DNA of 64,000 nucleotides from Tetracentron sinense. Taxonomy: Eukaryota > Streptophyta > Magnoliopsida > Trochodendrales > Trochodendraceae. The stretch lies in assembly GCA_015143295.1 (NCBI GenBank), contig CM026565.1, forward strand, positions 25,552,052-25,616,051. The letters run 5' to 3'. Of the stretch, positions 2,966 to 64,000 are shown in pieces. A program made the position numbers and the translations under genes. Position 1 is the first letter of the stretch, and every line of letters begins with the position of its first letter. Under the pieces are notes generated by a model, which saw nothing but the letters and a program-made list of their open reading frames with translations, did no database searches and was not told the DNA's origin.

Positions 2966-5900
2966 CTAAGAAGCACGGATACTTCAAAAAGGTCTCCGTA
3001 CCCGTGTCGGATACGTATCAGATACGGATATGCCTCCGATACGGCGGGATACATATGGGATATGGCTTAGACGTATCTAATTAATTTAAAACAATTTTTT
3101 ATCATGGATACGGCAAGGATACGTTTGGGATACAGCATGGATACGACACAGTCTTCATATTTATTATGTAAATCATTTAGGGCTCCATTCAGCTGAAACA
3201 AAAAAGAAAGAGAAAGAAAAGGAGGAAGAAGAGGAGAAAGGAGGAAGAACCCTACCTCTTTCGGTCTTTCCCGTCCGAAGCTCAAGCTCAAGCTTCCCGT
3301 TCAGGTCCCTGTTTGCTTCTTCTTTTTTTCTTTGTTCAAGAAATAGTTTGGTCCCTGTTTGCTTCTTTTTTTTATTGTTTGTTTTTTTTTACTATTTGCC
3401 TTTTCTTTTAAAGCTCAAACAACTATTAGTCTGTTACCCTCCCCCCCAAAAAAAAGGTTTCAACTTTCAATTGTCCAAATCAATTGTTTTTTAAAGGCTC
3501 AAATTTTAGTTGACTGTTTTCTCTTGTTTGCTTCCGTTTTTTTTTTTAAGGCTCAAACAAATTCAACTGTCAAATGAATCAAATCAATTATTTTTTTAGA
3601 GTGTTCTCTCTTTCTCTTTTAACATACTTTGATTGTTTACTAAATTCATAATTTTAGGAATATGAGTTCGGGTTCAGGAAGTTTGGGTTCAACGTGTGGA
3701 AGTGGAACTTCCATGATACAAGATGAATCAGATGATCATAATCTGTGGAATTATTTTACTAAAGTAGAAAAAATGGGGGAAGGAGGTGGGAATACCAAAT
3801 TCAAATGCAATTATTGTCAAAATATTTACAACGGGTCATATTTTAGAGTCAAGGCTCATTTGTTGAGACTTTCGGGTCATGGGATTAGAGTGTGCCCAAA
3901 AGTGAATTTCTCGACTCTTTCTAAAATGCAAAAGGTAGTTGAAGATGCTGAAAACCAGTTGAAAATGGTTATGCCTAAAAAGGTTCCTTTGCCACCTTCT
4001 GCTTACCAATCCATGGGTATGGGGTCAAGCAGTACCGGAGCAATTAGACAAGAAGGTTTTGAGCCAAGAAAAAGAAAGGCTTCTGGAAACACTACCTTAG
4101 AGAAGGCATTCAACAATAATGCTTGAGAACAATTGCATTCCGAGATTGCTCGGATGTTTTACTCAAGTGGCTTGCCTTTTCATTTAGCTAGTAACCCACA
4201 TTATGCGAGTTCCTTTTCATTTGCTGTAAACAATTTAATTGTTGGGTATGTACCTCGTGGATATAATTTGTTGAGGACTTCTTTACTCCAAAAGGAAAGG
4301 GCAAATGTAGAAAGGTTGTTGGAGACGACTAAGAAATCATGGAAGGAAAAGGGGTTAAGTATTGCTACAGATGGATGGACTAATTCACAAAGAAGACCTT
4401 TTATCAATTTTATGGCAGCATCAGAATTTGGTGCAATGTTCTTGAAAGCTATTAATTATGAGGGGGAGGTGAAAGACAAGTTTTATTATTTCCAACTTGA
4501 TCAATCAAGTAATTGAAGAAGTTGGACCTCAAAATGTGGTCCAAGTGATTACTGATAATGCTCCTATTTGTAGTTCAGCTGAATTACTCATTCAAGGCAA
4601 GTACTCAAATATCTTTTGGACACCATGTGTGGTGCACACATTAAACCTTGCCCTTAAGAATATATGCGCTGCAAAAAATATTGAGAATAATGCAATTACT
4701 TATGAAAAATGCCATTGGATTACAGGTATTGTTGGGGATGTGATGTTTATAAAAAAACTTTATCATGAATCATTCTATGAGATTGGCTATTTTCAATGAG
4801 TTTGTGCCCTTGAAATTATTTACTGTTGTAGACATGCGCTTTGCATCTTCAATTATTATGCTAAAAAGGTTTAAATTGATAAAGTGTGGCCTCCAAACAA
4901 TGGTTATAAGTGATAAATGGGTTTCGTACAAAGAAGATGATATTGGGAAAGCAACATTTGTGAAGGAAAATGTGTTGAATGATATATTTTGGGATAAGAT
5001 AGATTACATACTCTCTTTCACATTTCCAATTTATGAGATGCCTCGGTTTTGTGACACCGACAAGCCATGTCTTCACTTGGTTTATGAAATGTGGGATGCA
5101 ATGATTGAAAAAGTGATGGTATCCATCTATAAGCATGAAGGGAAGTTAGAACATGAGGAGTCAACCTTCTATTCCGTGGTGCATGAGATACTATTTGAGA
5201 GGTGGGCCAAAAGTAACACACATCTTCATTGTCTTGCACATTCTTTGAATCCCATGTAATAGTTTACTTTTAGACTATTAGTTATTCTTATTTTTTAAGT
5301 TATATCTTTTAATATCAATAGTATAATTTTTTTGATGTTTTGTTTTTTTTTAATTGTAAAATAGGTGTTACAATTCAATGTGGCTTGATGAAAATCCCAA
5401 TCATGTTCCTCCTCACAAGGATGATGAAATTGCAAATATGAGAAACAAGTGCTTCAAGAAATACTTTCCATGTGCAGATGAGAGAAGGGCTGTTAATGTT
5501 GAGTATGCCAAGTTCTCGGGTTGTTTGGACAAATTTGAAGACCATGACTCGAAAAATGATAGAGGAGCAATGGAACCACTTCTTTGGTGGTTTGCACATG
5601 GGTCTTCTGCACCTATGCTCCAATCTTTAGCATTGAAATTACTTGGTCAGCCATGTTCCTCTTCTTGTTGTGAAAGGAATTGGAGTACCTACTCTTTCAT
5701 TCACTCCCTAAAAAGGAACAAAATGACACCACAACATGCTGAAGATTTGGTTTTTGTGCATAACAATCTCCGTCTCTTATCAAGGAGGAGCCGACAATAC
5801 GTGGAAGGAGAGACCAAGCTATGGGACATTGGTGGAGATGGATTTGATTCAATGGAGGGTGCTGGGCCTGCTGGCTTGCTTGAAATTGCTAGTCTTTCAC

Positions 5901-6233
5901 TTGATGAGCCTGATATGGAAGCTATAGTATTCACAGAGGAAGGCGAAGATGATATTAATGAAGTTCCTTAGCTTCATAGGATGACTTTATTTTTTGCTTA
6001 GTGGATGATGAGATGTCTCGTTTGTTTTTGCATGGACATGGTCTTTTTTATACATAAACAGAACTAAACCAATGGTTATTTTGTAATTATAATACAAAAT
6101 ATAGTATTTTTTTTATATATATATAAAAAATACAGACGTATCCTGGCCGTTCCCGTATCCTGTTTTTTTAGGTTCTGCCGTATCGTCCTACCTGTATCGT
6201 ATCGTACCCATATCCCGTATCCGTGCTTCCTAG
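2966..6233 (+). mobile_element. Complete hAT (Ac/Ds superfamily) transposon, 3.27 kb
   Basis: The ends are inverted repeats: ctaagaagcacggatac at 2966-2982 and gtatccgtgcttcctag at 6217-6233, which match at 16 of 17 positions. They are flanked by an 8-bp target duplication, gctaacac at 2958-2965 and gctaatac at 6234-6241, with one mismatch. Eight base pairs is the hAT signature. Both subterminal regions (2975-3150 and 6130-6225) are packed with copies of ggatacg or its complement cgtatcc, the arrangement expected for transposase-binding repeats. Inside is a single transposase gene at 3662-5971 that can no longer be translated through. The element sits inside the old LTR-like sequence and is therefore younger than it. 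Confidence 0.95.
3662..5971 (+). pseudogene. hAT transposase, BED finger to hATC, disabled
   Basis: The reading starts at ATG 3662. Near residues 25-80 is a BED-type zinc finger (FKCNYC, then HLLRLSGHGIRVCP). Downstream follows a DUF659-like transposase core containing IATDGWTN and VITDNAP, two acidic positions of the expected catalytic core, and IFWTPCVVHTLNLALKNIC. At 5378-5971 is an hATC dimerisation region with SSSCCERNWSTYSFIHS. The frame is broken by an in-frame TGA at 4124-4126, a one-base frame change near 4480-4490, and an extra A in the A-run near 4751-4757. A 109-bp intron is likely at 5256-5364 (GT...AG), because removing it joins the last two blocks in frame. The protein would cut and reinsert its own element; this copy cannot make it whole, although the ends remain usable by a related transposase. 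Confidence 0.9.
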
Positions 6234-15987: not shown

Positions 15988-16005
15988 GGATTACCTTGTT
16001 AGGTG

Positions 16006-16711
16006 TGTTGAAACTGAGGATTCGAAGCTTTACCGAGCTGGAACACTAGATCTTCGTTTGCAAGATTTTACCTTCCAAAAAAAACAAGCTCCTCGATTAT
16101 TTCTGGGTAATCTGCAAGCCTGAAGTAGTTCAGCTCCACTGCATCGGCTGTTCTTCCTTGGGTTTCCTAAAATAGCAAATCAAGAGAGGTAAAAAGAAGA
16201 AATAATGAACTTTATCAGAGGGAGAGTAAAGGGAACAATCAAGAATACATGACGAACTGACATTTTCCATTTGAGAATACTGAAAATCCTCTCTAGACCT
16301 GAAAAACTCTCTTTTCGAAAATGGTTTTCATTGGTAACCAGAGTTTCTTGGAGAAGAAAACTTCTCCTAGAAATATCTTTTCTCTCCTAAAATTCTAATC
16401 CTTTTTCTCTCGAGTTGTTATTGTTGTATTTGTATCTAATCTCATGTAAGCATTCTCTATTTATAGAGAATAATTTAAACTTAGTTAACTTAAATCAAAA
16501 TATTTCAAGGTCGATGTGACATGTAACAAACTCTGACAATTATATTAAGAGGAGCGTATTCGGTTAAAGGGAAGCTGCCAGCTCATCAAACCGTCATAAC
16601 TGACTTATGGTTATAACAAAATCCTTTGGGTTGTTTATGACCTAAACAGTCTTATAAATGTATTCTTCAAAGGTTAAAAGAGTAAACCACTTCTAAGATC
16701 TATTTTAACAA
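16006..16711 (-). repeat. Left arm, main part
   Basis: This is the complement of most of the right arm with many small differences. It includes an outward TATA box (complement of tatttata at 16458-16465). It resumes at about 17809-17852 after LINE B. Confidence 0.75.
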
Positions 16712-17808
16712 AAGAGTAAACCATTTCTAAGATTAATTGTGTTGGGTTCCAAAGGTAGTTAAAGGTTCTCACGAGGTCGGGATGTGGACAGGAATCATGT
16801 CAGTGTCACGTTTCATCATCCCATTTTTCATGTTTGAGGTGGGTGAGGGGTCAGAGGTTAGATTTTGAAAGGATGTGTGGTGTAGTACCATTGGCTTTCA
16901 GGACAAGTTTGGTTCTATATTCCCATAACAATCGATAGGAATGAGTCAGTTCAGGATTACATGGATAGGGGGCGGGATGGGGTAATCTGGTGCCTCAAAT
17001 TAAGGAGAGAATTAAATGATTGGGAGATTGTCGAGCTTGGTAGGCTCTTACTGTGTCTGAGGTCACATCTCTCGCTCTCTCAGGGCAAGGATTGCAGAAA
17101 ATGGTCTAGGGGTAACAAGCGTCGCTTTTCAGTGAGGTCTCTAGGTCAGTCACTTGGGACGGGCCCATCTAGTTCCTTTCCTCACAAGGTTATGTGGAAT
17201 CCTATCATTCGTTCTAAAGTATCTTTCTTTCTATGGAATTCGGTTTTGAATAAAATTCTCACTTGTGATCACTTAAAAAATAGAGGGTGAAGGTTGGCTA
17301 ACCGATTTAAATATTTGTGCTTTTAAGCGGAAGAGTCGATAGATCACCTTCTGTTGCACTGTCCTATAGCACATGGTTTCTTCTTTCTAGGTGGGAGTGG
17401 ATTGGGTATTTCCCTCTTCCTTTCACAACTTCTTGTCTTACTGGGGTGAGGCATCTAGGGATGAAGCTAGGAAGGTCATATGGTAGATCTTGTCGGGAGC
17501 TATAGCTTGGTCCAGAGGGTGTTTGAGGATTTTCTCTCCTCCACTTTCACGTGCGCTCTAGAATCCGTTTGCTGATTTTAGAGTGATGTTCCTCTAAGGC
17601 AAGTTAGGGGTTGGGCATTTTGTTAGCCTGGTCCAGCTTAGCGTCACGGGTTAGCCATCAGAGGCCCCAAGGGTTTGTTTTTACTTTTCTTATCACCTTT
17701 TTGGCCCCTTGGTTCAAGGGCTTGTGAATTGTTGTATGGGCTTTGCCTTTGTATTCTTGATCCTTTCTTATTTATATACTTCTTGATTATCGATAATAGA
17801 AAAAAAAA
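16712..17808 (+). pseudogene. L1-type LINE relic B inserted in the left arm
   Basis: The frame near 16740 reads VVKGSHEVGMW. The open frame 16961-17290 holds the WSRGNKRRFSVRSL motif and SKVSFFLWNSVLNKILTCDHLKNRG, the typical spacer and zinc-finger region at the LINE C-terminus. LLHCPIAHG follows near 17350. Frame changes and stops interrupt it. The 3' end is an A-run near 17800-17810 after gattatcgataatag, close to the 3' ends of LINE A and LINE D. The arm sequence stops before it and continues after it, so LINE B is the later insertion. The first 22 bases repeat a stretch of the arm lying about 35 bp upstream, a feature I cannot explain. Confidence 0.85.
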
Positions 17809-17852
17809 ATTCCTCCTAGCCCTCCAAACCACATCTCATCATCCTTCCCTAG

Positions 17853-18752
17853 ATTCGGGCTTGTGAACTTATCATTGATGATGGAAAATGATAAGTTGAC
17901 ACGTGGGGCTTGTTTCCTAATCAAATTGAAACTTTGGTTAATCGAAGGCCACAGGGAAATGCTCATGATGATCTGAAAGGTTCAATTACCTGAAAATATG
18001 CTACATTCGAGAATAAGATTCGAGTTAAGGGCATATTGATCACTCACTACGCCTTTATGACTTGGGTAGTTCGAGTATTTTACAGATATCATGATCAAAT
18101 GAACAAATTTTGATCAAATAATGTGGTACACTTTCAGATTTTAGTTAAAGAGAAAGCTTAAGGAGGTATACTCCGTAAGGACTAAATTTGCCCCTTTAAG
18201 GATTTCAGTGATTTCAGTGGAATCAAGTCACTGCATATTCTAACGTCATTAAGATTTTTTTTTCTTTAAGACAGGTCTTAAATCAATGTCGTATCGAGCT
18301 TGTGTTGATCCAAAACTTTGAGGAGTTAATACTCCATTGGGATGAAAAGGCGGTTACCAGTTCAGCCTCGTCTTCGTAGGGATTCAGTGGATTCAGATCA
18401 CCATGCACTTTAATGCCTTGTCAAGGGGATTTATGTGTGATTGGTCACTACTCCCCGTGGGAATAGGCGTGCGTGTTCCCCCCATTTCCTATTTCAACAG
18501 TCCGGATTACTCTTGGGCTAATAGTCACGAGAGAATTTGGGATGTATCTTGCCTCATTTCCTTGTGGGTTATTGGAGGAGTGTGCCTCCATAGTCCCATT
18601 CTCATCGTATCAGATGATTGAGGCCTAACAGTGGATATCGCATCTGCCCTGAGAGTGGTGCCTCATCCAACACCTATGATCTCTCTAGGCCAAGGTATTC
18701 CAAAGGCATATGACCCGCCTTTGTCGTTACGTTGATTATATATATATATATA
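17853..18752. other. Spacer between the inverted arms
   Basis: These 900 bp have no domain I recognise and no long open frame. Two stretches resemble each other: 18200-18255 (gatttcagtggaatcaagtcactgcat) and 18375-18425 (ggattcagtggattcagatcaccatgca). This points to an internal diverged duplication. The end is an (at)n run at 18737-18752. Confidence 0.4.
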
Positions 18753-19475
18753 TGGGGAAGGATGATGAGATGTGGTTTAGAGGGCTAGGAGGGAATTTGT
18801 TAAAATAGATTAACGCTCTTAGAAGTGGTCTACTCTTTTAACCTTTGAATAATACATGTAGAAAGTTGTTTAGGTCGTAAACATTCCAAAGGATTTGGTT
18901 ATAACCAAAAGTCGGTTATGACAGTTTGATAAGCTGGCAGCTTCCCTATAAATATAATACACTCCTCTTAACAGAATTATTAGAGTTTGTTACACGTCTC
19001 ATCAACCTTGAGATATTTTGATTTAAGTTAATTGAGTTAAGATTATTCTCTATAAATAGAGGATGCTCACATGGGATTAGATACAACAATAATAATTCGA
19101 GAGAATAAGGAATAGAATTTCTGGAGAGAAAAGATATTTCTAGGATCTTCTTCTCCAAGAAACCCTAGTTTTCAAGAAAACCATCTTCAAAAAGAAAGTT
19201 TTTTAGATCTAAAGAGGATATTTAGTATATTCGAAGGGAAAATGTCCGTTCATCAGGAATTCTTGATTATTCCCTTTACTCTCCCTCTGATCATGCTCAT
19301 CACTCTTTCTTTCTATCTCTCTTGATTTGCTCTTTTGGGAAACCTGAGGAAGAACAGCCGATGTAATGGAGTTGAACTACTTCAGGCTTGCAGATTACAC
19401 AGAAATAATCGAGGAACTTCCAGACAAAGATCTAGTGTTCTAGCTCGGTAAAGCTTTGAATCCTCAATTTCAACA
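18753..19475 (+). repeat. Right arm, LTR-like
   Basis: It runs from tggggaaggatgatgag to cctcaatttcaaca. A TATAAATA box at 19051-19058 is followed by about 420 bp, consistent with U3 then R-U5 of an LTR. Confidence 0.7.
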
Positions 19476-19480
19476 AGGTG

Positions 19481-19799: not shown

Positions 19800-20018
19800 G
19801 AGAAACTTATCAACAATAGTCATTGTAGCCCAGGGCTACAAACAACCAATGCCCTCTAGACATCTTAGAAAATGTGTCATCTTCAGAGTTGTATTGCAGT
19901 TTTTATATAATTTTCTATCATTATTAAAAGGTTGTAAGTGACACATTTTCTGATGTGTTCAGAAGGCATTGGTTGTTTGTAGCCTTGGGCTACAATGATC
20001 ATTGTTGCTAAGTTTTAT
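19800..20018. mobile_element. Hairpin MITE, first of an adjacent pair
   Basis: The left arm gaaacttatcaacaatagtc plus tgtagcccagggctacaaac is mirrored at the right end by the complement of aaaacttagcaacaatgatc plus tgtagcccaaggctacaaac. Both arms extend about 80 bp, through gaaaatgtgtca, so the element folds almost end to end. A target duplication is not clear and the superfamily is unassigned. Confidence 0.65.
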
Positions 20019-20049
20019 TGGGGCCGGTTGGCTATGTTTTTTGTATGAG

Positions 20050-20243
20050 GGAAACTTAGCAAAAATGGTCTTTGTAGCCCAAGATTATAATGGACCAACA
20101 ATCAGCCGATATTTCAAAAACAAATTGCAGATATTTACTTTTTAATATTTAAATATTAAACCTGACAAATTTTTTGAAGTGTCGTCTGGTTGTTGGTCCT
20201 TTGTAGCCTTAAGCTACAAAGACCATTGCTACGAAGTTTTACT
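20050..20243. mobile_element. Hairpin MITE, second of the pair
   Basis: The left arm gaaacttagcaaaaatggtc and the right arm complement aaaacttcgtagcaatggtc share the style of the element 31 bp upstream, including tttgtagcc and ccaacaa. It is a diverged member of the same family in the next available site. No certain target duplication was found. Confidence 0.6.
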
Positions 20244-20830
20244 CATGTCAGCATTGCCCTTGCCTCGATAGTTTGGTTCATCATAAAGACCTGCAATCCA
20301 AGGAGAGATAGCCCTAAACAAAAAAACTAACAATTGCCCTCTTATCAACCAAGGCTGGACTATCCCTAAAATATGCAGAAAGAGGAAGATAGCAGTAGTT
20401 ACCTATTTGTCCACAACTCCACGGTTCATTCACATGGGTAGAGTGGAGTTTCTTTATGTCCGTATTCAGTTCATATTTCAAATGCTGCAATCTTTTTTTT
20501 TTTTTTTAATGAACAGCTAGTGATTATTTTAATTTTTGAATATGAGCACCCAAAGCAGGTTTGGTGCTTAAAAATATTTTGTGGCTTAAAAAAAGAATTA
20601 TTTTGGGGGGGTGGGGGGAATACAATTTAAGGGAACACATGCAAGCTAGCCATTTATCTTATTTAGCAGTGTAGAGAAAAGGAGATAAAAGTGGAAGTGG
20701 GGCCAGAAGTATTTGTGATTTCAAAGTTAGGTGGAATATTATCATCTAGAAATTCACACTGAGACAACTGAGGGAGTGGATTCTCATGAGGATAGTATGC
20801 ACAATGTAGTGGCACATAGTTCTCTTCTGG
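20244..20830. other. No recognisable gene
   Basis: Non-coding sequence with a T-run near 20491-20506 and a G-run near 20606-20617. Nothing else was recognised. Confidence 0.3.
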
Positions 20831-28956: not shown

Positions 28957-29248
28957 GGCCTCGGAATGTCTCTGGCGAAGCCAGAAAGCTGTCTCGGACA
29001 AACAATGAATATGGGACATGTGGCGATAAAAAGGGAAGAAGTCATTTCATTTTCTCCCCATGATTTTAACTTCTCCTCACTTGATATCTCTCCTCCTTTA
29101 TCTCACCACCTTATCACCATGTGTCATTTAGTGTGCGGAGAAATCAAAATCATAGGGCTCATGATTTTGACTTCTCCTTCACTTATCCTCTATTCTATAG
29201 TTGCCCGAGACAAGGGTTTTCTGGCTTCACCAGAGACAATCCGAGGCC
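28957..29248. mobile_element. MITE with ggcctcgg ends, copy 1
   Basis: The left arm ggcctcggaatgtctctgg and the right arm complement ggcctcggattgtctctggt are inverted repeats that continue for about 70 bp, through gggacatgtgg. A second hairpin sits in the centre around tgattttgacttctcc. Bases just outside the ends do not give a clean duplication. Confidence 0.7.
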
Positions 29249-30151
29249 CCTTCTATAAGTAAAAGGACCTTACTTGTCCGAAAGGATTACTTTGTCAGGC
29301 CAATACTATTGTAATAGTATTCAACTACCCCTTTGTGGTCTTCTTTCTCGTGACTGTAGCTTTAACTTGTGTTGTTGTTACCTTACCAAAAAAAAAAATA
29401 TTCCCCTTTGTTTTAAGGTAACCCCACAAGAAGTGCTAAGAGAAGATAAGATGTTTGGACAAAGATACTATTTACATCCATTTCACCCCACTGGATTGTC
29501 GATTAATTGTTTTCACTTACTATTTTCTCTACTGCTCTGTTTGACGTAAAATAAGGGAAAATAAATCAAATTCATAGAAAATGTTAAGTATGTGTGTTTG
29601 TTGGTACGTAAAATCTTTCATAAGTAAAATATTATACGGAAAAGAAACCACTTTTTCCAGAAAATGACTTATATTTCAAAAACTCGTAAATCATTTTTCC
29701 GTAAAATACTAATATCTTTAAAAATATTTAAAAATTATTAAAATACCCTTATTCATAATTTTTTTTTAATTATTATTTTTATTTTTCAAATTTTTTAATA
29801 TTAATTTAACAATATGCCCTTGAGATTAAATTGGCATGACCAAGTTAATTGTGACCGGAGGTCCTTGATCATCACTTGTGTTTTGTTTATTTTTGTTGAG
29901 AGTTGAATTTGGTGGTCACTCCAGATCTTATCTTAAACAACAAGATAAGGTATCCAGAGTTCCGATGTCGAAATGGAGAGTTTGTAGGGAGAGTATTGAA
30001 GTTAGACAAAGAAAGTGTAATATATATGGAAATAGATTGCTGACAACGCATTCAACTACCTAGCGAAATTTGTGGTCTACAAGCTGCCATGTGTCATTTT
30101 TAATACTCACTATTTGTAGTTAAGATTTACACACTCTTATCGATACGTAAA
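28957..30151. repeat. Tandem duplication, copy 1 (1.195 kb)
   Basis: This unit and the next align along their whole length from ggcctcgga at the start to gatttac(a/t)cactctt at the end. It opens with a MITE (28957-29248), followed by an AT-rich non-coding body containing cagataaggt-like and atatgcccttgagattaa landmarks. The short open frames inside have no recognisable domain. Confidence 0.85.
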
Positions 30152-30428
30152 GGCCTCGGATTGTCTCTGACGAAGCCAAAAAGGCCTCTTGGGCAATCAT
30201 AGAATAGGAGACATGTGGCGTTAAAAAGAGAAGAAGTCATTTCATTTTTCTCTCCATGATTTTGACTTCTCCCCCATTGATCTCAACACCTTATCGCCAT
30301 GTGTCTTATAGTGTGTGGAGAAGTCAAAATCATAGGGACCATGATTTTGACTTCTCCTCCACTTGTCTCCTATTCCATGGTTGCCCGAGACAAGCCCTTT
30401 CTGGCTTTGCCAGAGGCAATCCGAGGCC
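30152..30428. mobile_element. MITE with ggcctcgg ends, copy 2
   Basis: The ends are ggcctcggattgtctctgac and the complement ggcctcggattgcctctggc. The 9-bp flanks atacgtaaa (30143-30151) and acacgcaaa (30429-30437) agree at 7 of 9 positions. That is weak support for a Mutator-type duplication, because the duplication boundary falls at the same base. Confidence 0.7.
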
Positions 30429-31326
30429 ACACGCAAAAGGACCTTACTTGTACAAAAGGATTACTTTGTCAGGCCAATACTATTGTAATAGTATTCAACT
30501 TCTCCTCTGTGGTCTTCTTCTCATGACTTCTTTCTCATGACTAACAAATAAAAAACTTGGTTTTAGGGAACCCACAATAAGTGCTAAGAGAAGATATAGA
30601 TGATTGGACAAAGATACTATTTACATCCTTTTCACCCCCCATTTGATTGTTGATTAATTGTTTTCACTTGCTATTTTCTTTTTGACGTAAAATAAACAAA
30701 AATAAATCAATTTCATAGAAAATGTTAATTATGTGTATTTGTTTGTACGTAAAATCATTTATAAGTAAAATATTATACGGAAAAGAAACCACTTTTTTTT
30801 GAAAATGACTTATATTTCAAAAATTCGTAAATCATTTTCCCGTAAAATACCAATCTCTTTTAAAATATTTAAAAATACTCTTATTCATAATAATTTTTTT
30901 TTTCAATTTATTTAATATTATTTTGACAATATGCCCTTGAGATTAAATTGGCATGACCAAGTTAATTGTAACTAGAGGTCCTTGATCATCACATGTGTGT
31001 TTTGTTTACTTTTGTTGAGAGTTGAATTGGGTGGTCACTCCAGAGCTTATCTTAAACAACAAGATAAGGTATCTAGAGTTACGATGCAGCTCTCTCTCTC
31101 TCTCTCTTCTCTTTTCTCTCTCTATGCACAAGGACGGAAGGATAAAAAACAGAGAATAGAAATGGAGAGCATGTAGGGAGAGTATTGAAGTTAGACGAAG
31201 AAAGTGTAATATATATGAAAATAGATTGCCAACTACGCATTCAGCTACCTACCTAAATTCGTGGTCTACAAGTGTCATTTGTCATTTTTAATACTCACTA
31301 ACTGTAGTTAAGATTTACTCACTCTT
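30152..31326. repeat. Tandem duplication, copy 2
   Basis: The second copy follows at a period of 1195 bp. It differs by many point changes and by an insertion of about 65 bp with (ct)n at 31090-31155. Similarity stops at about 31326. Confidence 0.85.
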
Positions 31327-34300
31327 AAGATTCATTCATTTAACCTTATTTTTCAGGAAAAAATATTAACTTTAAATTGATTAAACTTAACAACAATTAA
31401 AGGGAACAAAATAGGAAGGAATTCAGCTACGTAACCAAATGTAGGGTTGGCTAATTACTGCTTACATATATATGGGAAGGGATTGAGAGACACATGAAAA
31501 AGAACAATGTTCAAACACACACACAGCTATACGAGTGGGAGATCCAATGGCCACCATTAACAACATTTAAATTTGTTTCCTTCATACCTGGAACATTGTT
31601 CTTTGAGTCCGTTTTCTGCCCTAAATTAGGGTATGTGTCATTACGGAATTAATGCTGGTGGAGAGCCCACCAATAGTTACAGGAGAGGATCCCAAATCAT
31701 TAGAAAATGTTCCCATCTTTAATCAGAAATATAGTTGTTGATTTTTCGCTTAGGGTAGGCAATGCCTCCCCAAGTAGGGCTAGCACTCATTATAATAATA
31801 ATAATAATAATTATTATTATTATTATTATTATTAGAGACGTAAAATGTCGCCTCACTAGAGAGGGTATCTGGGTATAATGGCCTTGTGACTTGGGCGTGT
31901 GTGTTGCGTATAGTGTGTGTTTATTGTGGAAACCAAAAAAATGTCACCTCGCTAGACAAACAGACTATTGTTCTGTTGCATGTGTGAACCACCAATTTTA
32001 CCACCCAACTTGTGAAGTCACAAGACCTTAGAAGCCAAACAACATCCAACAGAGTCCAAAATAGATGGTTGGAGGATTCAAGAAAAGTCATTGCTCATCG
32101 GATTTGCTTATCCTTCCCACGTATCTATCAATAAGGTAATTTAAATGACCTATTAGCCTCTCATCGGTTAATTATTAATAAAAGCAAAAGTTAAAATAGT
32201 TTCAATTTTTCCTTCTACAGGACTATTGGGTCAAGAAAATAAGTGAAAACATAAAAAAGAAAAGAAAAAATTGGATTTCAAATATAGCTTTTAGTTGAGT
32301 TTTGTCCAATTTTATATTTTCTTTTTTCACTAACAATTTTCTCGGCAACCAAACATAGCAAACATTTCCCTATTGGGAATTCGTAAACAATATTTTATAG
32401 TAGCACTTGCTTTTACTACCCTCTCCCCTTTTTTAGGATTTTACACTAGTAACGCAAAAATACATCAATTGCTAATTTTAGACAAGATGGAGAGGTATTG
32501 CGTGGCACCATATGTCATGACTTGCAGTCAGTAACGTGGCATGATTCGCCTCGGCGTGGCTTTCATCTTATCTCCAGGCTTCTGGGCACTTGACTTTTTC
32601 CTTATCTCCGCGTGACACCTTATTGCGAAAATTAAAAAGTATCATATCAACAAGGAGTAGTCTCATGGCACGAGCCCACCAAATAAAACGTGCCTAGTGA
32701 CGCACCATAACGGTTGATACGGGTCCTACATTGACAAATCCATGCCATGTGGCCACAGACCAACTGATAATGTAACGTCACTGATTATCCTTGGGTTGCT
32801 TATTTGGAGTATAACAGTGACAACATAATTGGATGATCTGTGAAAAATGGATGGCCTTATTTGGAGTAATCTAGATGTAGATAGAGTATTAGAATGGAAA
32901 GATTCAATGCGATGTCGGGTCACAGGGTATTAACATAATAACATGTCACGTTTCTAATTTCTATCGAAATTGGGAATCTCTCGCGAAGCAACACGTAGCC
33001 ATGGATGACGGTAGTCCCCATCGGCCAAGTGGCGTCAAGGATCTACGTTGTTTATTAGTTCAGATGTATTATTGTCACAATTATAACATCATATAATGGT
33101 GAACTTGACGAACTGATATATCTTAGTAGCTAAACGAAAAGAAAGCAAAAACAATTCCCATACCTATAACCCGCTTATTTTATCCCCACATGGCACACAA
33201 TGAATGGATGCCCGATGCCCCAGCTTCGGGCATGCACCAGAGGTAATCTGTTGCCAACTTAAAACATACATAACTTTTGATTCAAACTTCCCTTTTTAAG
33301 CGTCTCAAAAATACAAATCAAAACAGAACACAGTATTTTGCGTTGTTTAGATTTCTATTTTAAGATTGTTTTGATAGCTTTTAAGAGCAATTTTAGTTTT
33401 GGGGGCATTTTTGTAATATTAACTCTGTATTTTTGTAATTCTTCTTTAGATTTTCTTTTGCATTTTGAAAGTCAATGCTAATGATCTTGGATAGTCCAGA
33501 TGAACCCTAAAATTTAATTTTCTATTAAGGTGCAGTTATAAGCAATTTTGCAATTATTCAGATCTTCTTCTATCTTCTCATTGTGATTTTTAATTTGTCT
33601 ACATTACATTCTCTCTCAAATGGGACAGCATAGATAAGAATCTGTTGCCAATTATTACTTTGTTAGTTGGAAAGTTAGTTATAATAGGTAATCATAGTTT
33701 AAGTTGAACCAGGCAAGCTGGTTCCAAGTTTTGGGTTTGTCTGGAAAAAAAAAAGGTAGGTGAGATGACCATTGTGAATAGACATAGACACACTCCCTTT
33801 TGGATTCCAAACTTGCATGAGAAGTTTTTTTTTTCTTTTGTTCATTTTTTTCTTGTAATTGTTCAAATGGTGTGGTAAATGAGACGGTTACAATCCTTTG
33901 ATTCTGCTTGTACCCACTTAGGGATGGCAACGAGTCCGGTTTGGGTTGGGACCCTCAATAGATCCGGGTCCATTGCAATAGAGAATTTGATGCAAAACAA
34001 GTGGCAGGAGATTTTATAGAGTTATTGGACCGTTAAAAATCTAAACGGAAGACATTAATGTCCTGGAGTTGGAAACATACAAGATGACCCATTCCTAAAT
34101 GAAAACGTCGAAATCTTCAAGATCCATCACTTCGACATTTATTTTTATGTTTAGACCTCAAAAACAATAATTCTGTTATTTTAAAAAAGTTTTGTTTTGT
34201 AATAATAACTATATTTGTAGAAGTCAAAATCACACACCATCAATTCTATCTTGATCTAGGCTTTAGTATTAGTAGTTTCTTTGATTAGTTCAAATTTGCT

Positions 34301-36970: not shown

Positions 36971-37329
36971 GGCTCAGGATTCTCTCGAGTTGGAACCCCT
37001 AGAGGTCGCCACGTGTCTCCTTTGACACCCCTTAACCATGGGTAAGGTTCACCCACCCCTAGGGTTCACTCACCCATCCTTGGTTTTTTTTTTTAATTAA
37101 TTATTATTTTTTAAATTAAAAAAATATTTTTAATATTAAAAAACTCTAAAAACAGTTTTTTTTATTTAAAAAATAATAATTAATAAAAAAAACCAAGGAT
37201 GGATGAGTGAACCCTAGGGGTGGATGAACCTTACCCATGGTTAAGGGGTGTCAAAGGAGACATGTGGCGACCTCTAGGGGTTCCAACTCAAGAGATTCTC
37301 TCGAGTTGAACTCGAGAGAATCCTGTGCC
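36971..37329. mobile_element. Mutator-type MITE, 359 bp
   Basis: Nearly perfect arms of about 130 bp run from ggctcaggattctctcgag on the left and ggcacaggattctctcgag on the right (complement). They continue through ggaacccctagaggtcgcc and gacaccccttaaccatggg to an A/T loop. The right arm carries an extra 22-bp repeat of the ctctcgagtt word. The 9-bp flanks aacatttat (36962-36970) and aacatatat (37330-37338) agree at 8 of 9, as expected for Mutator-like elements. Confidence 0.9.
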
Positions 37330-45272: not shown

Positions 45273-45639
45273 AAGCCAAATCCTCTACGGTGATAACCGG
45301 ACTTGGCAAATTCAGTTATCACCCTTTGAGGTCATCACATGTCTCTTTTGACACCTCTTAACTATGATTAAGATTCACTCACCCCTTGGGTTCCCTCACC
45401 TAACCTTGGTTTTTTTTTTAAAATATAATTCTTTTTAAAATTATTTTAACATTAAAAAAACCTTTAAAACAGTTTTTAAATTTTAAAAAAAGAATTAATA
45501 TTTTAAAAAAAAAAACAAGGATGGGTGAGTGAATCTTAACCACAGTTAGAGGTGTTAAAAGGGACACATGGTGACCTCAAGGGGGGATAACGGATTTGCC
45601 CAATCCGATCATCACCGTAGAGGATTTGGAATTGGCTTC
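45273..45639. mobile_element. Mutator-type MITE upstream of the kinase gene
   Basis: Left arm aagccaaatcctctacgg and right arm complement gaagccaattccaaatcctc pair over roughly 130 bp, through cggtgat, gaggtcatcacatgtc and taagattcactcacc, to an A/T loop. Both flanks carry gcttccttct (45263-45272 and 45640-45649), a 9-10 bp exact duplication. It ends 290 bp before the putative TATA box of the CIPK gene and so lies in its promoter. Confidence 0.9.
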
Positions 45640-46014: not shown

Positions 46015-46123
46015 ATGCGGAAAGATGAGAAGAGCTTCGCGATCAAACCCTAATTTGATTGGGAGGACCAAGAACGGCAACGGCGGAAGAACTTGCCACC
46101 GAAAGCACGTCGAAGACGGGTAG
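46015..46123 (+). promoter_or_regulatory. Two upstream reading frames in the CIPK leader
   Basis: If transcription starts near 45965, the leader holds two short frames. One of 12 codons runs from ATG 46015 to TAA 46053. One of 32 codons runs from ATG 46025 to TAG 46123. They overlap each other and both end before the main ATG at 46170, so they could lower translation. Whether they are conserved is unknown. Confidence 0.4.
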
Positions 46124-46169
46124 ATTTCCTTCTCCGACTCCGGCAAGTTCAGTACTCGAAGCTTCTATA

Positions 46170-47273
46170 ATGGCAGCCAAGAAGGAAGAGAAGCTCTCCT
46201 CAAACGTACTTCACGGAAAGTACGAACTCGGTCGACTTCTCGGCCACGGAACTTTCGCAAAGGTTTATCATGCCAAGAACTTGCAGAATCAAAGAAATGT
46301 AGCCATGAAGGTAGTCGGAAAAGAAAAGGTGATCAAAGTAGGAATGATGGAGCAAGTGAAGCGTGAGATATCGGTGATGAAGATGGTGAAGCATCCAAAC
46401 ATCGTTGTACTCCATGAGGTGATGGCTAGTAAGTCGAAGATCTACTTCGCCATGGAGCTAGTTCGAGGCGGCGAGCTTTTCTCCAAGATCGCCAAAGGTC
46501 GGTTTAGAGAAGACGTCGCTCGGACCTACTTCCAACAACTTATCTCCGCCGTTGATTTCTGCCATAGTCGTGGTGTTTATCACCGTGATCTGAAGCCGGA
46601 GAATCTCCTCCTCGACGACGACGGAAATCTCAAGGTGACGGATTTCGGACTCAGCGCCTTCTCGGAGCACCTGAAACAGGACGGTCTGCTACACACGACG
46701 TGCGGAACTCCGGCGTACGTCGCTCCGGAGGTGATCGGAAAGAGAGGATACGACGGAGCGAAGGCCGATCTGTGGTCCTGCGGCGTTATTCTCTTCGTTC
46801 TTCTTGCAGGATTCTTGCCATTCCAGGACGACAACATAGTGGCCATGTACAAGAAGATCTACAGAGGAGATTTCAAGTTTCCGCCGTGGTTCTCCTCCGA
46901 ATCGCGCCGGCTCATCAACAAACTCCTCGATCCAAACCCTAGCACTCGAATCAGCATGGCGAAGCTCATGGAAACCTCCTGGTTCAAGAAATCGGTACGA
47001 ACGAAGAAAGGAGATTCAGAAATCGAAGGTTATGAAAAAGAGGAGATCGGTCTGAAAGGGAAACTCCCGGAGACGCTGAATGCTTTCCACATAATTTCGT
47101 TATCGGAGGGATTCGATCTGTCGCCGCTGTTTGAAGAGAAGAAGAGGGAGGAGAAGGAGGAGCTGAGATTTGCGACGACGAAGCCGGCCAGTACCGTGAT
47201 ATCGAAACTGGAGGAACTTGCAAATGCGATGAAATTCAGCGTGAAGAAGAGCGAATCGAGAGTGCGATTGTAG
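46170..47273 (+). CDS. CBL-interacting protein kinase, C-terminally truncated
   Basis: A CIPK/SnRK3 serine/threonine kinase; the family is activated by calcium-bound CBL proteins and regulates ion channels and stress responses. The ATG at 46170 has A at -3 and G at +4; an in-frame TTG 37 codons upstream is not a plant start. Residues 25-32 are the glycine loop GHGTFAKV. K47 is the ATP-binding lysine, HRDLKPEN spans 138-145, DFG 158-160 and APE 185-187, so every catalytic motif is present. The activation loop lies between DFG and [22 protein letters not shown] (303-321) is the NAF/FISL motif that binds CBLs. The TAG at 47271-47273 ends the protein at 367 residues, in the phosphatase-interaction region. 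No intron is present, as in the intronless CIPK clade; the C-terminal wording is closest to the CIPK5/CIPK25 group as I remember it. It may be a truncated active kinase or a recent pseudogene. Confidence 0.85.
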
Positions 47274-47907: not shown

Positions 47908-49372
47908 TAGAGAAAATGCATTGACACCCCTGAGGTTTGACGAAAATACAAATAAATCCCTCAGGTTTCAAAAAATACACTAGGTACCCTTATTTTTCAA
48001 AATATTGACATTTACACCTCTTTCACCAGCTATGGGATAAAATGTCATGAACTACTAAAAATTACCATTTCTAAAGTTGTTATTTTCCATTTTTCTCATG
48101 TACGAAAATCATCCCTTCATTTTTAAATGAAATCAGGTGACCACGGATCGTTTTTGACACTCCTTATGGTGGCCACGTGTCCTTTTTGACAATCCTTGAG
48201 GTTGCTATGAGTCTTTCTTGACACCCCTTAAGGTAGTCATGTGTCCTTTTTGACACCCCTTGCGGTGGCCACATGTCTTTGACACCCCTTAAATAGGGTT
48301 AAATTCATTCACCCATATGGTCGCCTGCCCATCTTGGTTTTTTTTTCTCAAATATTAATTCTTTTTTTTATTTAATAAATGTTTTTAAGACTTTTTTAAT
48401 ATTAAAATATTTTAAAAAATAATTAATATTTAGAAAAAAAAAAAAAAAAAAAACCAGGATGGGTGGGTGAACCCTAGGGGTGGCCACATGTCTTTTTTGA
48501 TACCACTTAAAGTAGCCACGTGTCCCGCCACGTGTCCCTTTGGACACCCCTTAACTGTGGTTAAGATTCACCCACCCCTAGAGTTCACTCACCCATCCTT
48601 GGTTTTTTTTTAAAATTTAAAAATTATTTTAAAGGTTTTTTTAATATTAAAATATTTTTAAAAAGAATTAATATTAAAAAAAAACCATAGATCGGCAGGT
48701 GAACCCTTGAGGTGGTCACGTGTCCTTTTTTAGACCCTTTGAGGTAGCCACGTGTCCTTTTTGACACCCTTTAAATGAGATTAGATTCACCCATGCCTAG
48801 GGTTCAACTACCCATCCTTGGTTTTTTTTTCTTCTAAATATTAATTATTTTTAAAAATATTTTAATATTAAAAAAGTCTTAAAAACAATTATTAAATTTT
48901 CAAAAAAGAATTAATATTTAGAAAAAAAAAAATCAAGGATGGGCGGGTAAACCATAGGGGTGGGTGAATCTAACCCCATTTAAGGGGTGTCAAAAAGGAC
49001 ACGTCGCTACCTCAAGGGGTGTCAAGAAGGACACGTGGTCACCTAAGGGGTGTCAAGAAGGACATGTGGCCACCACAAGGGGTGTCAAGAAGGACACGTG
49101 GTCACCTCAGAGGATTTGATTTCATTTAAAAATGAAGGGACAGTTTCGTATATGAGAAAAATGGAAAATGACAACTTTAGAGATGGTATTTTTGGTAGTT
49201 CATACCATTTTGTCTCATGACATCATCATTCCATCAGTCGACTAACGGTCAACTGATTGAAGGGGTGTAAGTGTCAATATTTTAAAAATAGGGATACCTA
49301 ATTTATATTTTCGAACCTGAGGGGGTCTATGTGTATTTTCGTCAAATCTCAGGGGTTGTAAATGTATTTTCT
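47908..49372. mobile_element. Mutator-like non-autonomous element, 1.47 kb, with tandem-repeat arms
   Basis: Outer arms of about 220 bp pair end to end: tagagaaaatgcattgacac at the left with the complement gagaaaatacatttacaacc at the right, continuing through tttgacgaaaatac and tcaaaatattgacatttac. The flanks aaaaaagat (47899-47907) and caaaaagat (49373-49381) agree at 8 of 9, a Mutator-size duplication. Inside each arm lies a row of about four units of roughly 38 bp, variants of gacaccccttgaggtggcca plus cgtgtcctttt, at 48140-48290 and inverted at 48985-49100. The centre holds two or three smaller hairpins with aaccatgg/ttaagattcaccc words and A/T loops. There is no coding sequence. Confidence 0.8.
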
Positions 49373-49381
49373 CCAAAAAGA

Positions 49382-53620: not shown

Positions 53621-56381
53621 AAGAGTACAACCAAACACTCGTGGCTTAATGAGAAAAATAGGAACCTGAGGGCAAAGAAGCTGATTTGGTAAGAGGCCAT
53701 CAAGAATGCGAGAAGGAGCTTGATTGATGAGAAAACATGCAGTGAGAAGAGCTATAGACCAATAAGGCTTAGGCATTTCCATGCCTCGCAACAAAGAATG
53801 AGTGACACCAACTAAATGACGATTCTTGCGCTCAGCAATGCCATTTTATTGAGGCGTGTAAGGACATGTAAGCTGATGGGCAATTCCATGAGTTTGAAAA
53901 AACTGGACAAAAGGTGCAAAGAGATACTCAGCGCCATTATCAGAATGAAGGGCCTTAATAAGACCACCAAACTGGGTAACAATCATAGTATGAAATTCCT
54001 AAAATTTAGAGAACATTTCATCCTTAGACTTAAGAAGGTACACCTAAGTAGCTCGAGTGTAATCATCAATAAAAGTAACATAATAACAAAAGCCATCACT
54101 TGAGGGAACAAGAGATGGTCCCTAAACATCCGAGTAAACTAAATGAAAAATAGGATGACATCTATGCATCTGAGAAGGATAAACAGTACGAACATGTTTA
54201 GTAAGCTCACAAGTATTACATTGAAAAGTAGATGAAGAACAAAGTTTACGAAAAGTAGGAATCAAAGAACATAAAGTCTTAGATCCAATATGCCAAGCTT
54301 GACATGCCATAAACGATAAGTATCAAGAGTAGCATCAACAAAAAAAGGAAAAACAAAAACAAGAGCAGCAGTAGAGGAGACTCGATCATGAGCATAATCA
54401 GTGTCAAGGTAGTAAAGTCTGCCTCTTTCCACTCCTCTACCAACAATCTTCCTCGTAGTCAGGTCCTGAAAAAGACAATGAGAAGGATAAAACATAACAC
54501 AATAGTTAAGTTTGGTAGTAAGACTACTCACTGAAAGAAGGATAGAAGATAAATGAGGAACAAGTAACACATGAGATAAAGAGAAAGATAGAGACACAGG
54601 AATGTGTCCTACTCCTGAGATCGGAGTAAAAGAACCATCAGCCAGGCGAACCTGGACAGTAAGCAATGAATGTGAATAAATGGAATAACCTTGTGACTCA
54701 CTAGTCATATGATCAGTAGCTTCGGTATCAATAACCCAACTAGGAGAAGAAGACGATGTAGTGGCGGCATAGGCCGAGGGAGCATGGATACATGTGGCAG
54801 ATGTAGCAGCAGTATATGGAGAATCACTCTGCAGATGGAACTCAGCTTGGATCATCTCAGCAACCTGGGCTCTCATTGACTCCAGAGCATCACTGGCAAC
54901 AACTGAGGATTGAGGATCAACAGCAGGATTCGAAGTAAAGTGAGTAAAAGGACGAGGCTGGTAACCCTCGAGATAGCCATACAAATGGTAACAATGGTCA
55001 CGATCATGTCCCACTATACCACAGTAACTACAAGGAGTAGTAGGCTTGCCATGACCATGACCGCCATGACTACGATGGCCCTTATCAATCCCCCTACCAC
55101 GGCCAACAACAGGACAAAAATCAGTAGCAAAGGTGGTACAATTCAGAAAGGACATAAGAGAGGTGCTCGAAGATATAATAGCCTGGCGGCATTCCTCACC
55201 AAACACAGTGGAGTACACAAATTGAAGAAATTGCAAAGGAGATGTGGTAAGAATCTGAATGCGTAACTGCTTGAATTCGGCCTGAAGACCTCCCAAGAAA
55301 TCATAAATGCGGTGACAATCAATTCGCTTTGTCATAATCTTGTCAGAAGTAGCAGATAATTCAGAAAGAGACTCAATGTCTCAATTCTTCCCAACGACGC
55401 TGAAGAGCCTCAAAATAATCTGAAATAGACATATCCCCTTATTGAAAGTGAGCAATCTCACGAGTAAGTTGATAAATCCGAACATCATTCTCTACTAGGG
55501 CATAAGTCTGAATAAGAGCCTCCCAAAGTTCATGAAAATCTTTATAAAAAATATAATTCTCGGCAATCTGAGGCTCCATGGAATTGAACAACCAGCTCAA
55601 AATAATGCAATTCTCTGCCTTCAACTTAGCAATTTCGGCAATACCTGTCTCTGGCTGTGGGTCTTACCATCAAGATACCCCATCTTAAAGCGACTCCCAA
55701 TATAAAGCTCAACCGAGCATCGCCACGCAAGAAAATTATCACCATTGAATTTAATATTGGTGATAGAGTGGACAACGGAGTCAGAAAGAGCTGGTGGAGC
55801 AAGAACTTTAGCATTCATAGAAGAAACTCAACGAACAAACACCAATCAATCAAAAATATCAATAACAAAAGATCTAATGGTATTAAGATTACTAAAGAGA
55901 TGACTTAAATTGCTGTTATAAACAAATAAGGTGTAAAATACTTTTTCAGCAAAAAAGGTAGTGAAGTGGGGCTGTAAAATCATCATGACTTCTTCAAATC
56001 TCATTTAAGCGAAGAAAAAACAGATTCAAGATGTTCCTATCAAAAAAAGGGTCTAACCATGACCAATAAACTGCGGAAGCAACAATCCATTCAAGCAGTA
56101 AAAAATCTGAACCAAAACAATATTTTTTTTTTCGAAATTTTATGTAATTTTTCTTCAAATCATCATAACATCATCAATATTTAACCAAATCTCATGAAAT
56201 AAGATTCAAAAATCCTCTAAAATCAAGATCTTTGAAAAATATACATTTGAAGAACCCAAAACCCAAAAATAAGGTCTAGGCCATACGGCTAGAGACAGTC
56301 GTATGATTAAAAATGTAGCAGCTAGCTCCTTCTTTCTTTTGTTGTTACGGTTTTAAACGACGTTCTTCTTCCTTTGATGTA

Positions 56382-61204: not shown

Positions 61205-61634
61205 TGGGCGTATCCTGGGTCTTTCCCTTTTCCTTTCAAAACTCCTTATCCTGCTGGGATTTGGCAAGTGGGGAAGGATCTTGGGTATCGATGTGGAAGA
61301 TGTTACCAGGGTTCATAGCTTGGTCTATTTGGGGAGAGAGGAATATGAGAGTTTTTAAGAACTCTTCATCCTCAATTTCTCCCTTGTGTGATAGGGCTAG
61401 GTCATTGGCTTTGGAATGGGGATTAGTAAGGCAGGAGAGGGAGAGTCTAGACTTGTTGTTTGATTGACCTAGTGTGTCGCAGAGTTTATTTGTGGGGTTA
61501 GTTGGGTATTCCTCTGTTTGCTTTTTAGTCTTGTGCATTGGTTCACGATCATGAACTATGCCCTAGACGATTTTATGTACCCTGTGTTTTTGCTCTATTT
61601 ATATTATGCTTGTTTACCGATCGAAAAAAAAAAC
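61205..61634 (+). pseudogene. 5'-truncated LINE D tail
   Basis: The frame 61111-61467 reads GVSWVFPFSFQNSLSCWDLA from about 61206, then MLPGFIAWSIWGERNMRVFK. This is the C-terminal end of the same LINE lineage as A and B. The coding part stops with TGA at 61465, followed by about 160 bases of 3' UTR ending in an A-run at 61624-61634 after ttaccgatcg. Only the last 430 bp are present, typical of incomplete reverse transcription. Confidence 0.8.
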
Positions 61635-63052: not shown

Positions 63053-63659
63053 GTACAAATTTAATCCTCTGCAACTTGTCTGAAATGTTTTAGATATGTG
63101 ATGCCTTCCATGCCTTTTGGCAACAAGAAATGCAAACACTTCATGTTAATGAAGCCAGTCATTAATTCCACAGTACTGCTCTGTGCTTGTATTGTAACCT
63201 ATTTGCTGCATGCTATGTTGTGCACATACAAAAACAGGTGTTGGTTTCGTACTCGGATATAGGGTGTCAGACACTGTGAACCCTATAAAAACGATTCGGG
63301 ACAGAAGATGATGTTTTAACTGTTTTTAATTTTAAAAATTATTATACTTTAAATGTTGTATGAATAATAATATATAAGATTGAAAATAAAATAAATTAAA
63401 TACAAATACAAAATTATTGTAAACACCACTAATCATATCACATCGACAAATCGAGCACCATTGACCATTCTAAGACGAAGTTCCTGATTTACGAGCAAAT
63501 GTGAGGAGAGGAAGAAGGCAAGTCCTCAAATACTCTCATGTCCCTCTTTCTAGATCATCCACAAGATAGATCATGACAGGAAATCCCAAATTATTCCCCG
63601 GGCACTATCTTGACTCATCCAGATCCATCACTATCATTTCCTCATATGACTGTTTAGAA
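63053..63659. other. No recognisable gene
   Basis: The start still looks like intron, up to acaaaaacag at 63238. The next TAF5 exon is absent; gtgttggtttcgtactcgg begins other sequence. It is AT-rich after that. Confidence 0.35.
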
Positions 63660-64000
63660 TCCTTGTGTTCCCTTGAAGGTATCTTTCTTCCTTTGGACCG
63701 CACCTCTGGATAAGATTCTCACTTGTGACATTTTGAATTAGAGTGAGTGGAGGAGATGGCAAACTACTGTTTTCTATGCCTTTCGTGCGAAAGAATTTGT
63801 AGATCACTTTCTCTTAAATTGTTTTGTTGCATTGCATATGATATTTTGGGTCATTTTCTCTCTCGACTAGGAGTGGATTGGGTCTTCCCCCCATCCTTTC
63901 AGACCTTTTTATCTTGATGGTCCCAGGTGAGCCTGGATGATGCTTGGGAAATAATTGGGAAATTTGTACCAGGTGTTATCTTGTGGATGATTTGGAAAGA
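63660..64000 (+). pseudogene. LINE E tail, running off the window
   Basis: The frame near 63677 reads LKVSFFLWTAPLDKILTCDI, then KEFVDHFLLNCFVALHMIFW, the zinc-finger spacer region also seen in LINE B at 17215-17290. Stops are present at about 63740 and 63871. Its 3' end lies beyond the window. Confidence 0.7.

Follow-up and report, generated by a model that had tools for sequence, protein, structure and literature searches.

Inverted LTR pieces within one pair of 5-bp repeats in Tetracentron sinense, possibly a palindromic retrotransposon cDNA integrated as a unit

The 64,000-nucleotide stretch of Tetracentron sinense DNA analyzed here (the window) contains, at positions 16001-19480, an unusual assembly of known parts: LTR pieces that point in opposite directions within a single pair of 5-bp repeats. 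We regard it as an aberrant LTR-retrotransposon insertion rather than as a member of an unnamed class. That a single molecule integrated at this site is well supported. With moderate confidence, we propose that this molecule was a palindromic cDNA of a Ty3/gypsy Tat-like element, generated by fold-back of the minus strand during reverse transcription.

Self-alignment and direct reading confirmed the inverted arms inside outer AGGTG repeats that an initial annotation of this DNA had described. One inverted match pairs 16006-16712 with 18796-19475 (82% over 715 aligned columns), and a second pairs 17804-17849 with 18755-18801 (94%). On ungapped sites, the arms are 87% identical (K2P 0.140). A 5-bp match such as that between the AGGTG copies has a chance probability of 0.0013, as calculated from base composition. 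The parts of the element are as follows.

16001-16005, no strand: left 5-bp target-site repeat AGGTG, from direct reading; identical to 19476-19480
16006-16738, minus strand: left arm, the U5-side (3') part of an inverted LTR, with outer end TGTTGAAA (reverse complement of TTTCAACA); 82% identity to the right arm
16458-16465, minus strand: left-arm TATAAATA, facing outward, from a motif scan; weak alone, with 14 in the window
16739-17802, plus strand: 3' fragment of a LINE within the left arm, with zf-RVT and a poly-A tail at about 17799-17809; left boundary approximate
17803-17853, minus strand: inner end of the left arm, which stops at the (TA)n run of the LTR; 94% identity to 18755-18801, compared with other copies
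17854-17872, no strand: junction filler, from comparison with other copies
17873-19475, plus strand: complete LTR of 1603 bp, starting CATTGATGATGG (family TGTTGATGATGG) and ending TTTCAACA; boundaries from genome copies
18752-19475, plus strand: right arm, which makes up the 3' part of the 1603-bp LTR, from self-alignment
19051-19058, plus strand: right-arm TATAAATA, facing outward, from a motif scan
19476-19480, no strand: right target-site repeat AGGTG, from direct reading

The outward TATAAATA boxes to which the initial annotation drew attention do occupy homologous places in the two arms (16458, minus strand, and 19051, plus strand), but the motif also occurs at 18947 (plus) and 17769 (minus), and its 14 occurrences across both strands of the window make it weak evidence by itself.

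Boundaries of the LTR were established from other copies in the 1.16-Gb genome, which was searched by using the left arm, the spacer, the LTR start, the C1 LTR (from the C1 locus described below), and the right arm as queries, with 40 candidates scored for each. The family set comprises 139 rows among the matches listed, corresponding to 106 loci; the left-arm query has at least 60 matches listed in its own genome, itself included. In the fetched copies, the sequence between the arms is continuous with the right arm; as a unit, the two begin with TGTTGATGATGG and end with TTTCAACA. Because copies share these ends and target repeats adjoin them, the unit is a 1.6-kb LTR, present in full at 17873-19475, and the left arm belongs, as an inverted 3' part, to another LTR. 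What had been taken for a spacer of about 900 bp makes up the first (5') half of the LTR on the right, so its interpretation as separate or coding sequence is ruled out; the view that each arm is an entire LTR of about 720 bp is likewise ruled out. The description of the arms as TG...CA-like LTRs holds in that they are LTR pieces whose outer ends are LTR ends, but their inner ends are not. GGGGAAGGA, at the inner ends of the arms, was first taken as polypurine-tract-like, an interpretation given up after the true LTR start had been located.

LTR positions from about 30 to 880 are absent from the left arm, and the missing stretch ends at the (TA)n run, which is a plausible candidate for the site of a deletion. 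This arm, an inverted LTR piece, is interrupted by the 3' end of a LINE, about 1060 bp in length, which had previously gone unnamed. The fragment matches the Pfam domain zf-RVT (E=3.6e-14, with stops read as X) and has a poly-A run at its end. No target duplication was found around it, the best shared word being 7 nt. Related stretches were found by self-alignment at 61216-61325, 63634-63728, and 63870-63915 of the window.

Target repeats of the family were evaluated in eight fetched rows with both ends readable, and five start offsets were allowed. Exact 5-bp repeats flank two of the eight, the solo LTRs L016 (AACAC) and L022 (CTCTT). The near-duplicates L013 and L014 match at four of five positions, as does L018, whose start is uncertain. 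L015 has no target repeat because its right end is eroded; its left flank resembles that of L016. L011 and L012 match at no more than three of five positions, and none is expected of them, since they are 5' LTRs followed by the primer site. A full-length copy on C8 is flanked by AAAGG and AAAGA. A 451-bp stretch read at C432:19200 did not include the LTR end.

Other family members carry direct LTR pairs: among the matches listed, C8, C7, and C432 each have two same-strand LTR starts separated by 12.8-13.2 kb, and the C7 and C432 pairs, which share an identical left flank, are probably a single insertion present twice. The sequence TTGG(C/T)GACTC follows the LTR in L011, L012, L071, and L073 and is a primer site by its position; a G-rich tract followed by CTAAA, which represents the polypurine tract, was recognized by eye before 9 of 38 LTR starts. 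A gag domain (PF03732) is present in L011, and one C8 copy encodes, in order, RVT_1, RT_RNaseH (below the cut-off), RVT_3, and Integrase_H2C2. Direct LTRs around a coding interior, the order of reverse transcriptase, RNase H, and integrase, the primer site and polypurine tract, and the 5-bp target duplication together identify the family, at the level of sequence features, as an ordinary Ty3/gypsy LTR retrotransposon of about 14 kb. The double RNase H of the C8 copy (RT_RNaseH remnant plus RVT_3) presumably points to the Tat group. The family resembles Tat-type elements (Tat/Ogre/Retand) in its gag, its series of reverse transcriptase, RNase H remnant, RVT_3, and integrase zinc finger, its TG..CA LTRs, its primer site and polypurine tract, and its 5-bp target repeats. 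The window locus differs from this type: no interior was found between its LTR pieces, and these are inverted, unlike in a normal provirus. The earlier statement that inverted LTRs are abnormal is supported, and, because copies with direct LTRs around a coding interior exist, the suggestion of an unnamed class of fold-back element can be set aside.

Other known systems share some of these traits. Older retrovirus work described palindromic or snap-back DNA, and FB/Galileo-like fold-back DNA elements have long inverted arms and a short middle. In contrast to the latter, the window arms are parts of LTRs with retrotransposon ends, and they show no sign of spread as fold-back units. A genome-wide fold-back family was rejected, as 102 of the 106 listed loci have no opposite-strand piece within 5 kb. 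To our knowledge, DIRS elements lack target duplications. DIRS-1 has inverted terminal repeats, as does the window element, and carries a tyrosine recombinase in place of a canonical integrase (PMC5633606). The window family differs in its integrase-type pol, the direct LTRs of its normal copies, and its 5-bp target repeats; the integrase zinc finger of the family and the AGGTG repeats in the window speak against a DIRS-1-like element. Passages on IRAP primers and on a copia clone (PMC2151762) have no bearing on the inverted layout. Judged by titles and the beginnings of abstracts, no paper on plant inverted-LTR proviruses within target repeats was found in a literature that mostly left subscription journals uncovered, so absence from print is not implied.

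A genome search for the same inverted arrangement, which the initial annotation had proposed, revealed that it recurs. LTR pieces are present on both strands within 5 kb at 4 of the 106 loci listed (the window and loci on C1, C17, and C20), a share that is rough because the queries were partly drawn from these same loci. When loci were placed at random, the mean number of both-strand cases was 0.026, and three or more occurred in none of 2000 runs. No inverted LTR was found in about 450 bp upstream of any of 38 other LTR starts, where the minus-strand match of L067 is only a (TA)n run. Outer 5-bp repeats are exact at two of the four loci (AGGTG in the window and GTGTG at C1) and match at four of five positions at C17 (GATCC/AATCC). 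In the window, C1, and C17, each outer repeat adjoins the U5 end of an LTR.

The C1 element (C1:13521471-13528678) consists of a reverse-complemented LTR, a reverse-complemented segment X, a 194-bp center, X, and an LTR, with GTGTG on both sides. Segment X is the 3' interior of the family; pieces of it lie directly upstream of LTR starts at six other places (on C8, C7, C432, and C12, and twice on C1, at 36.5 and 36.7 Mb). The left LTR has two inserts, and about 180 bp at the right end (LTR end plus flank) are tandemly duplicated. By eye, an insert in the left arm of this element (L066:2063-2938) resembles the LINE type found in the window arm. The left part of the C17 element (C17:18984645-18999708) contains GATCC, an inverted full LTR, the portion of an LTR from about position 1030 onward, and the primer site. 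Its right part contains an interior that holds a LINE, a 3' LTR detected only over its final 660 bp, and AATCC. The turning points thus differ among the window, C1, and C17. At C20:24026197/24026572, the left arm is about 66-73% identical to reference LTRs and, over 217 columns, 74% identical to the right arm of this locus; no left end was found, and the right LTR is cut short. This opposite-strand LTR pair (L048 with L069 and L070, C20:24024700-24028400) is strongly diverged, and a gap of about 18 bp separates its members at their LTR starts.

One explanation for such loci is that independent solo LTRs were inserted next to or within each other and that AGGTG matches by chance. Solo LTRs exist in the family, and C20, with arms about 74% identical where aligned, may be such a case. 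However, nesting predicts that a piece of the split LTR remains, and self-alignment detected none after 19475; moreover, the inner edges have no target repeats, whereas the outer repeats at the window and C1 are exact. We therefore agree with the earlier view that the whole unit, and not its single arms, carries the target repeat and that two solo LTRs do not fit, and we give this explanation almost no credence. Because the outer ends at the window and C1 are U5 ends in an exact 5-bp repeat, each of these two units is most simply explained by integration of one molecule with two U5 ends. A single integration is sufficient, so the later reinsertion that had been envisaged is superfluous.

Rearrangement after integration is likewise conceivable, by inversion or by inverted duplication (through break repair or recombination of nearby insertions) of a provirus or solo LTR. 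The solo LTRs L016 and L022, as products of LTR-LTR recombination, are in keeping with such events. Nevertheless, a rearrangement must have put a U5 end exactly at the target repeat independently in the window and at C1 (both exact) and at C17 (four of five positions), and the 38 other LTR starts without an inverted LTR upstream also argue against it. Simple inversion fails at C1, where two oppositely oriented copies of an interior stretch lie inside an exact 5-bp repeat. The initial annotation had named, as evidence that would refute its reading, ordinary direct-LTR copies with a coding interior together with an inversion breakpoint at this site; the direct-LTR copies were found, but the doubled interior of C1 disfavors the inversion. 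We consider rearrangement highly improbable.

The C1 structure requires an inverted duplication that includes interior DNA, and fold-back of the minus strand yields such a duplication at once. In our preferred model, the self-priming by fold-back, the joining of two U5 ends by integrase, and the sequence of later losses are inferred, as follows. A nascent minus strand would fold back during reverse transcription and prime on itself, and in the window copy, the turning point would be the U3 start of an LTR or a site close to it. The product would be a cDNA with outward-facing LTRs, both molecular ends of which would be U5 ends (TTTCAACA). Integrase would then join these two ends to the host with its normal 5-bp stagger, producing the AGGTG repeats. 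Later, the left arm would lose LTR bases from about 30 to 880 (alternatively, the polymerase might have jumped there) and gain the LINE fragment. The fold-back hairpin must become a linear duplex before integration, and no intermediate was seen.

Sequences at the junctions bear on the self-priming step. In the window, AACTTATCATT (17866-17876) matches LTR positions 15-25 in reverse complement, and its last four bases are the first bases of the LTR. An 11-bp inverted match was reached by 0.07% of 8643 control windows, which were of 24 nt as compared with 27 nt for the observed one. Four of the 11 bases are LTR bases, and the match amounts to 8 nt when counted up to 17873 and to 9 nt when counted up to 17874, the latter being reached by 0.4% of shuffles. 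At the C17 junction, 8 of 12 positions agree between the inverted LTR end and the bases that precede the join, and 2.4% of 1649 LTR positions reach the same value. Both junctions are compatible with self-priming, although these signs are modest.

Ty1 autointegration is reportedly the subject of work by Garfinkel et al. in 2006, and a related process could be considered here. An integrase-activated U3 end would attack, within an LTR of its own cDNA or of a sister cDNA, position p on the opposite strand, and the resulting molecule with two U5 ends would then integrate. Retroviral and Ty1 autointegration is also a rearrangement at the cDNA stage, and it yields deletion or inversion circles (PMC2644782). 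It would give the same junction, the reverse complement of LTR positions p to the end joined to an LTR, for the window and C17; in both, the inner junction leaves the LTR intact except for at most a few bases at its TG start, as expected of a processed U3 end. However, the circles are described as nonproductive (PMC2644782), whereas the window element is chromosomal and lies inside a target repeat. The filler of about 19 bp in the window is also unfavorable, and C1 turns in the interior, where no integrase-active end is present. Autointegration fits the window and C17 about as well as fold-back does, but it does not fit C1, and we view it as unlikely.

Alternatively, two cDNAs could have been joined head to head outside the chromosome by end joining or template switching, with integration of the dimer and later LTR-LTR trimming. 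C17, with its three LTRs (full inverted, partial 5', and 3'), resembles a trimmed dimer, and the window junction contains filler, which is typical of end joining. Divergence between arms, however, is close to that among the LTRs of the single C17 element: K2P is 0.140 in the window, 0.138 at C1, and 0.113-0.132 among the three LTRs at C17. A tree of 22 LTR rows places the C1 arms as sisters (100/99) and likewise the C17 LTRs (100/100), although two cDNAs from one burst could likewise give similar divergence and sister arms. We rate this explanation as decidedly unlikely. In the same tree, L009 and the two window arms form a group (97/97) in which L009 joins the left arm at 83/70. Constraining the window arms as sisters costs 0.59 lnL (p-AU 0.236), so their sisterhood is neither shown nor rejected. 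Among the matches listed other than self, the left-arm query places L009 first and the right arm second; for the right-arm query, L009 is first and the left arm second.

Several findings count against fold-back as well. The window element is not a full palindrome, so that the model must also assume a deletion or jump of about 850 bp. The sisterhood of its arms is not demonstrated, and the microhomology at C17 is weak. The target repeat at C17 has one mismatch, and an extra LTR-LTR recombination is required on one side of that element. Also, the right end of C1 has its tandem duplication.

If palindromic proviruses within target repeats are genuine, self-primed, aberrant cDNA of LTR retrotransposons can still integrate, with two identical ends. 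They would also be natural long inverted repeats in a plant genome, a structure able to start small-RNA silencing. Annotation based on direct LTR pairs would score them as two solo LTRs. Tentatively, and with considerable doubt, we suggest that fold-back is a regular by-product of reverse transcription in this family and that integrase accepts two U5 ends, so that a few percent of insertions (3 or 4 of the 106 loci listed) would be palindromic proviruses and, if read through, a potential source of hairpin RNA that could help to silence the family. The TATA boxes of the window LTRs are directed outward. Therefore, both promoters, if active, would fire outward, and a hairpin RNA would need read-through from outside, which makes the hairpin idea for this element probably weaker than had initially been stated.

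Other features of the window were also observed. To the right of the element, 19803-20015 and 20045-20246 are adjacent, mutually related, near-palindromic repeats that are MITE-like and about 75% self-complementary. A family of mutually related palindromic repeats, with up to 90% self-complementarity, occurs on both strands at 36978-37298, 45276-45629, and 48472-49376. The region 28957-31327 holds a 1-kb direct repeat (82%) and an adjoining 170-bp repeat (29970-30139 and 31159-31327, 90%). A 404-amino-acid open frame at 46059-47273 (plus strand) contains protein kinase and NAF domains and is presumably of the CIPK type. Finally, remnants of hAT transposases (zf-BED, Dimer_Tnp_hAT) and of a Pol polyprotein (Pol_BBD) are located at 3662-5971 and 54262-55335.
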